IMG/VR virus record: IMGVR_UViG_3300021963_000242
Span: 1 to 43,197 of that record
DNA length: 43,197 nucleotides
From: a virus
Strand: one strand, 5' to 3'
In this document: piece by piece, positions 4,215 to 13,048 of the stretch
Layout: every line of letters starts with the position of its first letter
How positions within the stretch are numbered: the stretch's first letter is position 1
Notes under the pieces: generated by a model
The model's database searches: none
Seen by the model: the letters and a program-made list of their open reading frames with translations, nothing else
Told to the model about the DNA's origin: nothing
Made by a program: the position numbers and the translations under genes

Positions 4215-5294
4215 ATGAACGAGCAGCAAGTCAAACAACAGCGTGAAGTCACACTGCAAGAAGCGGCAGACCTCATCGCAACAATCCCACAAAACCGATT
4301 CTTAATCCAAGGTGAACCTGGGATCGGCAAGTCCTCTGTGCTTAACCTCTTAGAAGCAAACCTGTCTGCGGACGAGTACGACTTCGTCTATGTAGACTGT
4401 GCAAGCCTAGACCTTGGCGACACTGCCGCACCTATCCCGAACCGAGACGCTAGAGTCTTGGAGTATTACCCCAATGGTGCGTTCAAACTGCACACTGATA
4501 AGAAGGTAGTCATCTGCCTCGACGAGTTCAGCAAGGGTGCTGATCCAGTAAAGAACATGCTGCACCCACTACTCGAAGAGAACAAACCGAGGATGGCAGA
4601 TAAGTTCCTCAAGGATGGCAGTATCGTATTCCTTACAGGCAACCTCGCAACCGATGGCGTAGGTGACTCACTCAAAGCGCATACCATTCAGCGAGTAACA
4701 AGAGTGGATGTACGCAAGCCCTCTGCTGACATCTGGCTACCTTGGGCTACTGCTAACAACATCGCACCAGAGGTACGGTCATGGGTGAACGGACACCCTG
4801 ACTGTCTAGCATCCTACCGAGACCCTGGGCAGGAGAACAACCCCTACCCATACAACCCACGCAAACCGCATCTCTCTTGCGTCTCACCTCGCACACTGTC
4901 TCGTGCATCTAACATCGTCAAGCAACGACACAACAACACGCACAACGCAGTACACGTAGCACTTGCAGGTACGGCGGGGGATGCCTTCGCGGATTCGTTC
5001 ATGGCATATCTACAGTTCAGCGATCAGTTGCCAACACGTGAAGCAATACGCACTGACCCCAAGGGTTGCCGTGTCCCTACCGAGTCAGGTGCTCAGGGTA
5101 TCTTGGTCTATGGTCTCATGGACTCAGTAGCTAAAGACAACATCGACGCTTACATGCAGTACATCGTGAGACTTAACCCTGATTGGACTGCATGCTTCTG
5201 CATATCAGTAGCTAAAGATCCCATCAAGCAACGCATTGCCTTCAGTAGCCCACTGTTCAGTACGTGGTGTGCTGAGAACCAAGACATCCTCTAA
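4215..5294 (+). CDS. AAA+ ATPase, MoxR-like
   Basis: A 359-residue cytoplasmic ATPase. Walker A is GEPGIGKS at 33-40, Walker B is VVICLDEF at about 98-105 and a sensor-1 region IVFLTGN lies at about 137-143. The order and spacing fit the AAA_5/MoxR branch, whose members act as chaperone-like remodelling machines together with a von Willebrand A (VWA) partner. Such a partner is encoded two genes downstream (6188-7456), with one unknown gene between, so the three probably work together. The start is ATG 4215 after AGGAGCAACAGT. The substrate is unknown. A replication or anti-host role is possible, but the pairing is stronger evidence than either. Confidence 0.85.
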   Translation: MNEQQVKQQREVTLQEAADLIATIPQNRFLIQGEPGIGKSSVLNLLEANLSADEYDFVYVDCASLDLGDTAAPIPNRDARVLEYYPNGAFKLHTDKKVVICLDEFSKGADPVKNMLHPLLEENKPRMADKFLKDGSIVFLTGNLATDGVGDSLKAHTIQRVTRVDVRKPSADIWLPWATANNIAPEVRSWVNGHPDCLASYRDPGQENNPYPYNPRKPHLSCVSPRTLSRASNIVKQRHNNTHNAVHVALAGTAGDAFADSFMAYLQFSDQLPTREAIRTDPKGCRVPTESGAQGILVYGLMDSVAKDNIDAYMQYIVRLNPDWTACFCISVAKDPIKQRIAFSSPLFSTWCAENQDIL

Positions 5295-5315
5295 CTAAAC
5301 CAAGGAGAAAACAGC

Positions 5316-6179
5316 ATGACTATCCTTTCTAACGCAGTGCTTGTTGAACTCAACATCAGTACGTGGACAGCGTACAAGTTGGACAAGCAGCAATCCGCTA
5401 AGGTTGTTGCAGATAACAACGCAACAGAGAGTGACGCTGCCCGCGTCAATAAGAACCTCATGGCAGGCACTTCCCTGCTCAAGAACATCAACGACTACGT
5501 TGCGAAGGTTCGCGTCTGGCACATAGCGCAGACCCTCCCGTGGGCAGAGAAGGGACCGAGACTGCTGCCGATGAAGAACTTCTTCAACTACAAGCAGCAA
5601 CTGAATCAGATGGAGGCTAACACTGCTGCACTCGTGCGGACATTCTGTGATGCTTACCCTAACCTCGTGTCAGTAGCAGCATTCAAGCTAGGTAACTTCT
5701 TCAACCGCGAAGAGTATCCCGATGTGAGTGAGGTGCTTCGCAAGTTCAGCTTCAGGTATGCGTTCACTCCAGTGCCGCAAGCAGGGCACTTCATACTCGA
5801 TGCACATAACGAAGTAATGCAAGAGCTAGCGCAGAGCTACGAGGCCGAGGCTAACCGCAGGGTAGGTGAGGCTATGAAGGATGCGTGGGGAAGACTTCAC
5901 GAGACACTGAAGCACCTCTCAGAGCGTATGACCGATGCACCTGCTGAAGATGACAAGAAGAAACGGTATCACGACAGCATGCTCACTAATGCACACGAGC
6001 TATGCGGGTTGCTTACTGCGTTCAACATAACATCAGACCCTAAGCTTGAGCAGGCTAGGCGAGACTTGGAGTGTGCCTTGGCAGGTGTACGCATCGATGA
6101 CATCAAGGAGAGTGCCTCAGTTCGCAAGGGTATCAAGGCTAAGGTGGATAACATTCTGGCAGTTAACGATTGGATATAG
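5316..6179 (+). CDS. Unknown helical protein in the ATPase-VWA set
   Basis: A 287-residue soluble protein with no motif that I recognise. It is rich in predicted helix, with long charged segments around residues 165-230 (for example RVGEAMKDAWGRLHETLKHL) and no cysteine pairs or membrane segments. The start is ATG 5316 after AAGGAGAAAACAGC. It lies between the MoxR-like ATPase and the zincin/VWA gene in one transcription unit, with 21 bases before it and 8 bases to the next ATG. The position suggests an adaptor, substrate or structural subunit of that set. Confidence 0.85.
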   Translation: MTILSNAVLVELNISTWTAYKLDKQQSAKVVADNNATESDAARVNKNLMAGTSLLKNINDYVAKVRVWHIAQTLPWAEKGPRLLPMKNFFNYKQQLNQMEANTAALVRTFCDAYPNLVSVAAFKLGNFFNREEYPDVSEVLRKFSFRYAFTPVPQAGHFILDAHNEVMQELAQSYEAEANRRVGEAMKDAWGRLHETLKHLSERMTDAPAEDDKKKRYHDSMLTNAHELCGLLTAFNITSDPKLEQARRDLECALAGVRIDDIKESASVRKGIKAKVDNILAVNDWI

Positions 6180-6187
6180 GAGGTTAT

Positions 6188-7456
6188 ATGTTTGCACAAG
6201 CATTGGCGGATACAGTAGAGCAACGCCTAGCTGCACAGACTAGGCGCATGACCAAGATCAACATCGCAATCATGCGAGACAGTAAGTTCGCACTGTGGTC
6301 TGGGTTCTTATCGCTAGGCAGTATCAAGATTCTTGATAAGGACTTCACAGCAAGAACCAACGGCATCGATGAAGAGTACAGTCTAAGCTTTATCGAGACC
6401 CTTACCGATAAGGAGTTAGCCTTTGTCAGGCTACACGAGATGCTGCACAAAGCCTTCAAGCATCTCAAGATATATCAGAAGCTATACAAGGAGGACGCAC
6501 ACTGTGCTAACAAGGCATGCGACTACTTGATCAACTATCTGCTATGGGAAGCAGATCAACAAGGGCAAACCATCACCATGCCCAAAATCGCACTGTTCGA
6601 CATCCAGTACAAGGGTATGAACAGCAAGCAGATCTATGACCTGCTACGCAAGCAGAAGCAACAGCAACAGCAACAGCAAGGACAAGGCACACCACAGCAG
6701 GGACAAGGTCAAGCGCAAGGTCAGCAGTCACTAGATGAGCACATGTGGGAAGAAGCAGAGGGCATGTCCGACGATGATAAGAAGAAGATAGAAGAGCAGG
6801 TAGATGCTGCGATCAGGCAGGGCATCATTGCACATAACAAGAAGAACAAAGGCAAGGACGCAGGGAATATGTACCGCACCCTGCAAGAGGTGCTCATGCC
6901 GCAAGTCGATTGGCGTGAGCAGTTGCGAGAGTTTGTTAAGCAAGCGTGTCCAACCAAGAGCAAGACATCGTGGCGCAAGCTTAATCGTCGCATGCTTGAG
7001 TTCGATGTGTACATGCCGATACTTGTCGGCGAGAAGATGAAGGACTTGGTGGTTGCAGTGGATACGTCAGGATCTATTGGTGATAAGGAGCTAGGTGCAT
7101 TCCTTGCAGAGATCAAGTCTATCTGTGACGAGGTGCAACCAAGCAATCTGCATCTGCTCTATTGGGACACACGCATCGCTAACCACGAGACTTACACAGA
7201 GTCTAACCTCAGCTTGCTAACAACATCGACTAGACCGAAGGGTGGGGGCGGCACTAGCCCTAGCTGCATCGCTAGATATATGAAGGAGAAGCACATCGAT
7301 GCTGAACTATGTATCGTGTTTACTGACGGACATGTCGGCACTAGTTGGGGTGGTCCGGCGGGAGATTGGGTATCACCTGTCTTGTGGGCAATCGTGGATA
7401 ACAAGGATGCGGTTCCGGCTTTTGGGACAGCTATACACATTACATCTGATAAGTGA
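6188..7456 (+). CDS. Zincin-like plus VWA-like protein (DUF2201 type)
   Basis: The 422-residue product has two parts. The N-terminal part carries HEMLH at 83-87, an HExxH zinc-protease motif, inside a region like the putative metallopeptidase domain of DUF2201 proteins. After a glutamine/glycine-rich linker (about 155-181) comes a VWA-like domain with the metal-site motif DTSGS (about 292-296) and TDG (about 378-380). ATG 6188 is chosen because AGGAGG stands at 6178-6183; the in-frame ATG at 6170 would place that site inside the gene. It probably partners the AAA+ ATPase at 4215. Whether the HExxH site is active cannot be told. Confidence 0.85.
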   Translation: MFAQALADTVEQRLAAQTRRMTKINIAIMRDSKFALWSGFLSLGSIKILDKDFTARTNGIDEEYSLSFIETLTDKELAFVRLHEMLHKAFKHLKIYQKLYKEDAHCANKACDYLINYLLWEADQQGQTITMPKIALFDIQYKGMNSKQIYDLLRKQKQQQQQQQGQGTPQQGQGQAQGQQSLDEHMWEEAEGMSDDDKKKIEEQVDAAIRQGIIAHNKKNKGKDAGNMYRTLQEVLMPQVDWREQLREFVKQACPTKSKTSWRKLNRRMLEFDVYMPILVGEKMKDLVVAVDTSGSIGDKELGAFLAEIKSICDEVQPSNLHLLYWDTRIANHETYTESNLSLLTTSTRPKGGGGTSPSCIARYMKEKHIDAELCIVFTDGHVGTSWGGPAGDWVSPVLWAIVDNKDAVPAFGTAIHITSDK

Positions 7457-9433: not shown

Positions 9434-10198
9434 ATGGCTACAAAGAAAGTAACAGAAGATACGATTCAAATCATCGAGATGGAAACGCAGACGGTTACGT
9501 TTCATGTGATCGGAACTACACCTAAAATCTGCAACCGTATGCCTGAGAAGGCGTGGCAACAGTTGTTGCTTCCCTCTGGTCGCAAGACTGCTGCTGAGAA
9601 AGCAGGATCAATGAAGCACGATCCGCTGGTTGAGTATCGCTCATCGCCTTACCGCATGTCATCAGGTGCTGTAACCGAGTTGGCTGTTCTTGCTACGCAG
9701 TTCAAAGGTGCGCTACGCAACGCTGCACTAGATATGCCAGGAGCTAAGAAGTCTCAGATTGGTCGGTTAACTTATGTAGAGGGTGAGCGCATCGAGCTAT
9801 ATGGTGTTCCTAAGATCTTCTCAAGTATCACTCGATCAGCAGACATCAACAAAACCCCTGACGTTCGCACTCGTGCCATTCTTCCTAAGTGGGCATGCAA
9901 GGTTGATATTACTTATGTGCGTCCGGTATTGAACCATACCGTTATCTCTAACCTCTTCGCTACAGCAGGTATTACGATGGGCGTAGGTGATTGGAGACCT
10001 GAGAAAGGTTCAGGCAACTATGGTCGTTGGAAGATTGTTGATGCTGATGATCCTGAGTTCTTAGATATTATTAAGAACGGTGGGCGTGACGCGCAGCTTG
10101 AGGCACTTGAGAATCCTGAAGCATACGACGATGAGACCGAGGAGCTGTTGTCTTGGTTCAATGCCGAGACCAAGCGCCGTGGATTGAAGGTAGCCTGA
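9434..10198 (+). CDS. Unknown conserved-looking protein, possibly RAMP-like fold
   Basis: A 254-residue protein with the start ATG 9434 after GAGGAAATC. Two segments stand out: FKGALRNAA at 90-98, and the glycine-rich GVGDWRPEKGSGNYGRW at 183-199. Together they resemble the layout of RAMP/Cas7-type RNA-binding proteins, where a KGALR segment in the first half is followed by a glycine-rich loop near the end. This is a guess from pattern only. The C-terminus (about 205-245) is acidic. It is co-transcribed with the next gene (one base apart), and a long pentamer array follows that gene. Confidence 0.8.
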   Translation: MATKKVTEDTIQIIEMETQTVTFHVIGTTPKICNRMPEKAWQQLLLPSGRKTAAEKAGSMKHDPLVEYRSSPYRMSSGAVTELAVLATQFKGALRNAALDMPGAKKSQIGRLTYVEGERIELYGVPKIFSSITRSADINKTPDVRTRAILPKWACKVDITYVRPVLNHTVISNLFATAGITMGVGDWRPEKGSGNYGRWKIVDADDPEFLDIIKNGGRDAQLEALENPEAYDDETEELLSWFNAETKRRGLKVA

Positions 10199-10199
10199 T

Positions 10200-10661
10200 A
10201 TGGACAGAGCCGCAATCGCTAAGAGGTTAGAAGAGATTGCGGCCCTCCACGGAGGGTCGCTTACACCCGACATCGTAGTAGCAGACGCTAAGAATCCAGG
10301 TAGCCCTCTGCATGAATACTTTGATTGGGATAAAGAGTCAGCATCCTACAAACATTGGTTAGACACTGCACGTAACCTCATTGCATCTGTTCGGGTTGTC
10401 ATAACGACAGAGAAGGTTGTGATCAAAGCACCTGTTTACCTGAGAGATCCTACCAAGAAGGGCAACGAGCAGGGCTATACCACACTGACTAAAGTTCGCA
10501 GTGATCGAGACATGGCAGCGGAGGTTATTAACCACGAGGTCGCTCTGATTATTGCTGCATTGCGTCGCGCCAAGAACGTAGCGCAAGCCCTTGACATGGT
10601 GGATGAGATGGAGAACCTGTTGGGGCAGGTCTTAGCACTAAGAAGTAAGGTGGAGACTTAG
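10200..10661 (+). CDS. Unknown phage protein
   Basis: A 153-residue soluble protein starting at ATG 10200, one base after the previous stop. The N-terminal part (LTPDIVVADAKNPGSPLHEY, about 21-40) is a segment I have seen in other phage proteins of unknown role. The middle is beta-rich, and the C-terminal half is a long helix. No catalytic motif is visible. It is the last gene before the 500-base GGYNN array. Confidence 0.8.
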   Translation: MDRAAIAKRLEEIAALHGGSLTPDIVVADAKNPGSPLHEYFDWDKESASYKHWLDTARNLIASVRVVITTEKVVIKAPVYLRDPTKKGNEQGYTTLTKVRSDRDMAAEVINHEVALIIAALRRAKNVAQALDMVDEMENLLGQVLALRSKVET

Positions 10662-11160
10662 GCAGGTGAGGTGGGGTAATACTTGGTGGGGTAAGGTTTG
10701 GTCCGGCAGGTCAGGCGCGGTGGGGTAACGCAGGTAGGGTTATGTATGGTCAGGCGCGGTCTGGTGCGGATGGGTTCGGTAAGGTGTGGCAGGTATTGCA
10801 AAGTGTTATGGGGTCTGGCGCGGTCAGGCGCGGATAGGTTGGGCAGGTAAGGTGGGATGAGAATTGGTAAGGTGAGGTGAGGACTGATGAGGCAGGTAGG
10901 GTTGGGTGTGGTACGAAGGGGTGTGGTATGGAGTGGAGTGGTTAAATAAGGCAGGTCTGGTCTTGTGCGACTAGGTTGGGAGCGGTGTTTGAGGTGTGGT
11001 CGGGCATGGTACGGCAGGCGTGGTGGTATTCGGTTAGTTGGGGTTAGGTAAGGTAACGTCAGGCAGGTTAGGTGAGGTCGGGATAGGTGTCTTATGACAA
11101 TTCTGGCAGGTTAGGTGACGTACGGTCGTATTGGTGTGGTGAGTTTCTGTATGGCAGGTA
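10662..11160 (+). repeat. Degenerate pentanucleotide array (GGYNN)n, non-coding
   Basis: About 500 bases in which GG followed by T or C recurs every five bases, with the other two positions free, for example GGTAA GGTTT GGTCC. Phase slips of one base occur. Longer exact copies are embedded: GGTCAGGCGCGG at 10709, 10748 and 10822. The plus strand is very rich in G and T and poor in C and A. A five-base period is not a coding period, and stops are scattered in all frames. The array ends just before the AGGAGG site of the gene at 11177. Origin, RNA element or protein-binding array are all possible. Confidence 0.8.
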
Positions 11161-11176: not shown

Positions 11177-11377
11177 ATGGAAGATTTTGATGCGGAACGT
11201 GAACACTTTAGACAGCAGATGTTGTCTGATCTTAGAGATGATTTTGCTATGGCAGCGATCACAGGAATCCTTTCAGGTAAGTGGGGACAAATGCCCCAAT
11301 TCAAACCGGAAGAAGCTTTCGCAGATTTTGCATACCGGGTAGCAGACGAAATGATTAAACGGAGAGGAAAGCAGTGA
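11177..11377 (+). CDS. Unknown small protein
   Basis: A 66-residue, mostly helical product (DAEREHFRQQMLSDLRDDFA at the start). The start is firm: AGGAGG at 11167-11172 before ATG 11177. The 16 bases TATAGGAGGTTATATG at this start are the same as those at the zincin/VWA gene start (6188). It overlaps the next gene by GTGA. This little acidic-then-basic protein has no recognised motif. Confidence 0.75.
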   Translation: MEDFDAEREHFRQQMLSDLRDDFAMAAITGILSGKWGQMPQFKPEEAFADFAYRVADEMIKRRGKQ

Positions 11378-11931: not shown

Positions 11932-12296
11932 ACAATGAACATGTGCTGACCCCCTTGCAACTGAATTGCATTAACTATGTGAGGGGGTGCGAGAAACCTC
12001 CTAACCGCAAAGAGGTTGCACTTTATTTGTCTATTTCTCCCGAAGCTGCTAACGGACTACTAGCAAGACTTGAGTTTTATGGGTATCTAAAAAGCTTTAC
12101 AGAACGTGGTAAGTCAAAGCAGATGGAAAGGTTCTATGTGTTTGTAAGTATGAAGCGGACTAAGTTTCAATCTGCGGAAAAGCGTAAGAACACTTTAAAG
12201 ATTAACTTTATGTACAACGATCCGTTTAATTTGTCAGGAGCTAGAGCATGCCGTGAGATTGCGCGATTAGTTAAGACTAACAACAGCCTTTTATGA
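11928..12296 (+). CDS. Winged-helix DNA-binding protein
   Basis: The first 60 residues of this 122-residue protein form a winged helix: LTPLQLNCINYV, then the recognition-helix region NRKEVALYLSISPEAANGLL (about 26-45) and the wing. It resembles LexA/MarR-type N-terminal domains. The basic C-terminal tail ends in a segment NFMYNDPFNLSG, which resembles the end of the second winged-helix protein at 15129. It probably binds phage DNA as a regulator. It is coupled to its neighbours by four-base overlaps on both sides. Confidence 0.75.
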   Translation: MNNEHVLTPLQLNCINYVRGCEKPPNRKEVALYLSISPEAANGLLARLEFYGYLKSFTERGKSKQMERFYVFVSMKRTKFQSAEKRKNTLKINFMYNDPFNLSGARACREIARLVKTNNSLL

Positions 12297-13048
12297 AAGA
12301 CTTAGTTTCAATCATCATGCTTTCGTACAACGGGGTTACTTACATAAAGGAAGCTATCGACAGTATAAAAGCACAAACCTACCCAAACTGGGAATTAATA
12401 ATTAGTGATGATGGTTCTAATGATGGGACTTATGAGCTTTCTTTGGTTCTTGCTAAGGACGAACCTAGAATAAAAGTAGTACAGACCCCAAAAAGATTGG
12501 GCATTCCTAAAAATCGTAAGTTTGCGTTTGGTCATACTACGGGTAACAAGATTTGCCATGTTGACGGAGACGATGCTTTGTTCCCGCACTCTATAGAGTA
12601 CATGCTTAAAGGCATGAAAGATTTTGATTTAGCTTTTTCTGATCTTGCTTGGATGGATAAAAACTCAAATATTTTTCAGTATCATGCAAATGTAGATACA
12701 GAACTAAAAAATTTAGGTTGGCGACATTTGTCTATGTACACAAGAAAGGCTTACGAAAACACGAATGGTTATAACGACAATCTCATAAGTGCTTGCGAAG
12801 ACGGTGATTTGTTTATGCAGATAGCAGAAAAGTATAAATATGTGCGTGTACAACACGCATTATATAAATATCGTATGCACGACAACAACGCCAGCGTTAA
12901 CAACAAAAAATGCGAAACATGTACAGAAAAACCTATATGTAACTACATAAGAGTTTGGGGTAAAGAAAATAACTGGGACCCAATTAATTGGGTTCCTAAA
13001 ACACCTTTAAATTTATTTGTTAGTGGAGTTAAAAATAATCATGACTAG
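12293..13048 (+). CDS. Family 2 glycosyltransferase
   Basis: A 251-residue GT-A enzyme that moves a sugar from a nucleotide sugar. It has the family 2 opening VSIIMLSYNGVTYIKEAIDS (5-24), the first acidic pair IISDDGSNDGT (about 37-45) and the metal-binding HVDGDDAL at about 90-97. The C-terminal part has four cysteines in CETCTEKPIC (about 205-215), unusual for the family and possibly a metal site. It is placed among small early genes, not with the late or tail genes, so host-surface change, DNA base glycosylation or protein glycosylation are all open. Start ATG 12293 overlaps the previous stop. Confidence 0.85.
   Translation: MKDLVSIIMLSYNGVTYIKEAIDSIKAQTYPNWELIISDDGSNDGTYELSLVLAKDEPRIKVVQTPKRLGIPKNRKFAFGHTTGNKICHVDGDDALFPHSIEYMLKGMKDFDLAFSDLAWMDKNSNIFQYHANVDTELKNLGWRHLSMYTRKAYENTNGYNDNLISACEDGDLFMQIAEKYKYVRVQHALYKYRMHDNNASVNNKKCETCTEKPICNYIRVWGKENNWDPINWVPKTPLNLFVSGVKNNHD

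Follow-up and report, generated by a model that had tools for sequence, protein, structure and literature searches.

Organization of the locus

The window analyzed in this study, which denotes the entire stretch of 43,197 bases of an IMG/VR record classed as linear, contains genes for a terminase, a DNA polymerase, a helicase and a primase-like protein, with the terminase being closest to that of a phage of a gammaproteobacterium (57%), followed by those of pelagiphages (about 50%). The region of interest, located on the + strand, encompasses a gene coding for a protein of 254 amino acids (9434-10198), a gene directly 3' of it coding for a protein of 153 amino acids (10200-10661) and an array of GGYNN units (10661-11158), which begins at the stop codon of the gene preceding it and ends with the final GGCAGG sequence. 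The first gene 3' of the array (11177-11377, + strand, 66 amino acids) apparently does not belong to the system described below, and a glycosyltransferase-like protein with a weak match to a GtrB-like PHROG is encoded directly past the region (12293-13048). Upstream, a gene row at 4215-7456 codes for an AAA (MoxR-like) ATPase, a DUF3150-like protein and a DUF2201 metallopeptidase/VWA protein, a MoxR-VWA-like set. Beside the terminase region, a long non-coding stretch (2269-2940) contains tracts of 6-7 G as well as repeats rich in G/C and is not a GGYNN array; a second array called by the detector at 2227-2493 was rejected as it consists of G-runs only (z=1.3).

Within the tract, GG recurs every five bases, as reflected in an autocorrelation of r=0.41 at lag 5, 0.30 at lag 10 and 0.31 at lag 15. 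We counted 53 GG pairs at lag 5, compared to 19.9+/-3.9 in 1000 dinucleotide-preserving shuffles with a maximum of 36 (z=8.5), and a control pattern read backwards has no match in the window. The regular spacing proposed in an initial annotation of this DNA is thus borne out, as are the three copies of the 12-mer GGTCAGGCGCGG starting at 10709, 10748 and 10822, and the description of the tract as non-coding sequence that is not a clean tandem repeat, with the five-base spacing being conserved in relatives. The same annotation had assigned a continuous period to positions 10662-11160. The continuity does not hold, since at intervals of about 50 bases a 4-base unit (GGCA, once CGCA) introduces a phase shift of -1. 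Consequently, no one phase dominates the entire tract, while each single module is in register. Promoter and terminator scans did not exceed the number of sites found in shuffles, and in the vicinity of the array they returned none on the + strand.

If cut at the GGCA junctions, the array falls into modules of the form [GGYNN]n + GGCA, each about 50 bases long and followed by the GGY of its successor. Ten modules, one of them short, constitute the array of the window, and GGCAGG is the only constant sequence between them. The modules hold 7-11 GGYNN units between junctions, except for the short one with four NN. Across the array family, typical junction spacings are 49, 54, 59, 64 and 44 bases, or 48, 53, 43, 58 and 63 where a second 4-base unit sits inside a module. 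On the + strand, module 1 (10661-10704) carries the NN chain GA GG AA TT GG AA TT CC and is followed by the short module 2a (10705-10728; CA GC GG AA), which is closed by CGCA and split at CGCAGG from module 2b (10729-10787; AG TA AT CA GC CT GC TG TC AA GT). Next in order are module 3 (10788-10841; AT AA GT GG CT GC CA GC TA TG), module 4 (10842-10890; AA GG GA TT AA GA GA CT GA), module 5 (10891-10949; AG TG GT AC GG GT AT GT GT TA AA), module 6 (10950-11012), which has a 4-base unit inside and is also present in the relatives L003 and L016, module 7 (11013-11061; GT GG TC TA GG TA AA AA CA), module 8 (11062-11104; TA GA CG TA GT AT AA) and finally module 9 (11105-11152), which again includes an internal 4-base unit.

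The neighboring genes encode a Vipr homologue and a presumed accessory protein

Arrays of alternating GGY and NN have been described in a 2026 preprint as part of the Viral Interference Programmable Repeat (VIPR) system, a relative of CRISPR in which RNAs of this composition act together with the phage RAMP protein Vipr, and where only two in each group of five guide bases serve to read the target DNA (PMC13142463). As described there, the NN bases pair with DNA, leaving one base unread between consecutive dinucleotides, and targets in competing phages are silenced. The system is divided into seven types and is proposed to predate CRISPR (PMC13142463).

The gene at 9434-10198 provides the link to this system. 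A profile of its family with 61 members, searched against the PDB, retrieved a single strong chain, 36pp, annotated as 'SUSP1 Vipr protein' (E=3.8e-44), whereas the sequence from the window alone found no match in the PDB with phmmer. All 61 aligned members match phrog_4652, a family of unknown function. The AlphaFold2 model of the protein has a pLDDT of 91.9, and its top matches in Foldseek are RAMPs of the Csm3/Cas7 type (best E 4.1e-6, prob 1.00), with 36pp being absent among the structural matches listed. Based on its profile and predicted fold, the product of 9434-10198 is a homologue of the Vipr RAMP protein, and we thus refer to the gene as vipr.

The adjacent gene at 10200-10661 (phrog_15946) is presumed to encode a vipr-accessory (vap) protein. 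Its homologues were identified at 41 loci, every one of which also contains a match to vipr. The AlphaFold2 model (pLDDT 92.7) has no significant match in the PDB and only weak matches to winged-helix (FoxO-like) proteins (E 0.4-0.6).

Linkage of the array to vipr

We turned to related loci to investigate how tightly array and genes are associated. The presence of the array at the same place in close relatives had been chosen beforehand as a test of the initial annotation, and it was found in all 14 relatives identified via the accessory gene, each with intact vipr and accessory genes. Independently of any gene, a scan of IMG/VR with the bare pattern (GGYNN)x7 retrieved 120 contigs, which agrees with the statement in the initial annotation that other phages contain similar tracts. 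A Vipr homologue is found in 80 of these contigs, typically adjoining the array, and a few of the retrieved contigs merely contain simple tandem repeats. As control, 1.0 Mb from other viral loci gave no match to the Vipr profile. The array is linked to the gene of this RNA-binding RAMP across 94 loci. Conversely, the array pattern is found in none of 14 long records sharing a structural gene with the window, and the system hence looks like an accessory locus.

Several features of these contigs are recorded here as separate observations. Depending on the clade, vipr is flanked by arrays on one side or on both (L022, L065, L089, L102, L131 and others). Two very long arrays are found beside Vipr outside of the clade of the window, one at L098:7505-9256 on the - strand (about 1.7 kb, 102 overlapping perfect 7-unit matches) and the other at L040:6202-7130 on the + strand (about 0.9 kb, 69 overlapping perfect 7-unit matches). 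In 41 of the scanned sequences no Vipr could be detected, and several of these sequences represent the end of a contig or a simple repeat.

A tree calculated for 89 Vipr proteins contains one clade of 44 rows with a support of 100/97, which groups every locus with at least two GGCA junctions as well as all loci with the accessory gene, whereas outside of this clade there is no accessory gene and, except for one single junction, no array with GGCA junctions. This clade presumably corresponds to one of the seven types of the preprint and perhaps, as a guess, to the one with 'staggered' arrays.

Conservation of NN positions and turnover of modules

The initial annotation had regarded the two NN positions as nearly free to vary, which turned out to be the reverse of what is observed. 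In homologous modules of relatives, GGY columns differ in 45 of 504 cases and NN columns in only 14 of 336 (Fisher p=0.0085). The distinction is illustrated in module 3, where all 10 NN are identical in the window and in L003, L004 and L016 despite several differences in GGY. Across the array family, departures from GGY are frequent, with the first base not being G in 139 and the second in 223 of 1041 units. Such conservation suggests that NN carries the message while GGY provides a drifting scaffold, which is the pattern expected of guides.

At the same time, relatives with Vipr proteins of 98% identity, as measured between the window and L003, differ by gain, loss and reordering of entire modules. 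A module related to module 8 is found in all 11 other relatives with parsed arrays, and in L016 the equivalent of module 9 precedes that of module 8, opposite to the order in the window. From this reordering and from the preference for NN over GGY in conservation, we tentatively consider a scenario, plausible without being the favored outcome, in which the GGCAGG junction would serve both as guide boundary and as joint where whole guides are swapped by recombination. If so, related phages would draw on a shared and shuffling pool of guides, used in the phage of the window against rivals and maintained without spacer-acquisition machinery.

Search for targets

Guides of the window family did not reveal a target in 1.2 Mb of the collected loci, and in DNA of related phages (1.0, 0.8 and 1.6 Mb) their matches did not exceed those of shuffled guides. 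The exact target pattern of module 3 has no match in either IMG/VR or GTDB, and that of module 2b none in GTDB. Several candidates were rejected. The one exact match of module 5 in IMG/VR is at chance level and is not extended by the next unit. The guide TA GA CG TA GT AT AG TT, which is present in most relatives, has 24 matches that reduce to about six sequence families, again at chance level, with most of them residing in one conserved gene (GPVGDK). For the guide AC GG TA AA AA GT GG TT GA, a single independent 18/18 site (L161/L162) is about what chance would provide. A mild excess of matches with a skip of one base in relatives was lost once non-redundant guides and a larger number of shuffles were used (6 vs 3.8+/-1.7). 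The skipped base tends to fall on the codon wobble position in guide matches, which is not counted as evidence as shuffled guides show the same tendency. The negative outcome may be due to the restriction of scans to exact matches, to unsampled rivals or to old guides.

A different result was obtained for cultured phages. By tblastn, the pair of vipr and accessory genes was located in Mycobacterium cheoctoviruses and Gordonia phages, hosts that are not mentioned in the main text of the preprint (PMC13142463). The same architecture is found in the phages Saal, James, Pippy, ByChance, Florinda, ODay, Ecliptus and UmaThurman, whose sequences clearly display arrays and GGCAGG junctions. Vipr of Florinda is product 60 of this phage (YP_009206778.1). 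In Saal (L163, 3830-3860), the last module continues into a GGCTGG-GCAA-CCAGCC stem, which is perhaps a terminator or an array tail.

Altogether, 21 guides from cultured phages were compared with the phages Che8, Giles, TM4, Tweety and Bxb1 and with phage segments. The Florinda guide AATTATTTTTATGCCCTCAT (AA TT AT TT TT AT GC CC TC AT) matches 19 of 20 bases at positions 10431-10460 of Che8 with a skip of one base, on the opposite strand of the tape-measure gene 14. With skips of 0 and 2-5, the best match is 17 or less, and none of 1500 unit shuffles of the guide scored above 17. In Wachhund, Squirty and Minnie, all 19 bases of the site are kept, with differences to Che8 confined to skipped bases. 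Within the first 34.9 kb of Florinda itself, the best match is 14/20, and one of two such tied matches is located in its own tape-measure gene. Tweety likewise does not exceed 14/20. We thus regard the tape-measure gene of Che8 as a predicted natural target of the Florinda guide with a skip of one base, for which the sequence evidence is good, albeit from a single case. A 14/14 match of an UmaThurman guide in Che8 was discarded for being too short to trust, and guide 3 of Saal has no match in IMG/VR.

Interpretation of the array

We conclude that the tract is very probably an array of guide RNAs (vrRNAs) of a phage VIPR system, which likely serves to silence genes of other phages competing within the same host. 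The array would be transcribed together with vipr and the accessory gene and processed at GGCAGG, with each module of about 50 bases between GGCA junctions serving as one guide, in which case the phage of the window would possess about nine or ten guides. Vipr (9434-10198) would coat the RNA by gripping each GGY while leaving each NN free, so that the NN of a module, amounting to 14-22 bases in 7-11 units, could read double-stranded DNA while skipping one base after each dinucleotide, and the target DNA bound by the guide would be silenced. The evidence for binding of vrRNA by Vipr, for one-base-skip pairing and for the repression of transcription originates from other VIPR types (PMC13142463).

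Several alternatives were weighed against this interpretation. It appears improbable that a VIPR-derived array would be directed at the genes of its own phage or act as an incompatibility or immunity tag instead of targeting rivals. Such use would agree with the lack of an outside target for guides of the window family, and the experimentally characterized cases in the preprint belong to other VIPR types (PMC13142463), but there is no convincing guide match in the DNA of the window or its relatives either, and the Florinda guide, which is of the same type, fits the tape-measure gene of rivals and not its own. We find it quite unlikely that the locus is inactive and its guides drift in a decayed array. 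Although the many units off GGY and the targets not found would be compatible with decay, conserved NN next to drifting GGY is the reverse of a neutral process, and the turnover of modules between close relatives and the intact genes in all of them equally oppose it.

There is very little room for the proposal of the initial annotation that the tract is a DNA element for replication or packaging, or a binding array for a protein reading one face every half turn. The tract is non-coding and strand-biased and its period equals half a helical turn. However, its neighbor is a gene for an RNA-binding protein with linkage over many loci, GGY/NN arrays have been described as VIPR guides (PMC13142463), NN is better kept than GGY, and the four-base slips would spoil any helical register. 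Moreover, the array is missing from the 14 long records with a shared structural gene and is hence not a site on which the phage group depends. The second proposal of that annotation, an RNA sponge for ribosomes or CsrA/RsmA, would suit a G-rich RNA with many AGG and GGAG words, but it merits hardly any credence in light of the rarity of GGA, a CsrA motif disfavored by the pyrimidine at the third unit base (94% T or C across the units of the array family, A in 53/1041), of an RNA without excess structure (fold z=0.30) or Rfam family even at relaxed threshold, and of the conservation of NN that it leaves unexplained.

The VIPR mechanism is the discovery of the authors of the preprint (PMC13142463), to which our study adds one further VIPR locus. 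Its near-identical phages offer a natural series for the comparison of guide arrays module by module, and the information content of NN is now backed by sequence evidence that is independent of the original VIPR experiments. The arrays in Mycobacterium and Gordonia phages, together with the predicted target of Florinda in Che8, make phage-on-phage interference testable in Mycobacterium smegmatis.

Comparison with known systems

The characterized representatives of VIPR type II are found in phage SUSP1 and in a Pseudomonas fulva prophage, with PDB 36pp as structure (PMC13142463). With the SUSP1 system, the locus shares the gene for the Vipr RAMP, a small and presumably accessory gene, the location in a phage and non-coding GGY/NN repeats on the same strand adjoining vipr, in which NN varies between guides. 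In addition, one natural target with a skip of one base is predicted for Florinda, whose array is of the same type. The described vrRNAs contain 9-16 repeats in about 100 nt and, in the SUSP1 clade, an invariant structured 3' tail (PMC13142463). In contrast, the array of the window consists of abutting modules of about half this length with GGCA at their junctions and fewer repeats (7-11) per module, it lacks the structured 3' tail, and its presumed accessory protein has no relative of solved structure. The missing tail is compatible with membership in VIPR, since it is a trait of the characterized clade and the preprint reports other array forms. Among these are 'staggered arrays with overlapping vrRNAs' (PMC13142463, fig. 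S18), whose close packing could fit the -1 slip at GGCA, a likeness that is a guess from their description.

With Class 1 CRISPR-Cas systems and their Csm3/Cas7 RAMPs, the locus shares the RAMP fold, as judged by the Vipr model, the guide array beside the gene and a turnover of modules resembling that of spacers. It differs from them in the absence of CRISPR repeats and of any constant repeat beyond GGCAGG, and no other cas genes were seen among the neighbors of the array. Finally, the period is five instead of six bases, and guide bases are interspersed with bases of the scaffold.
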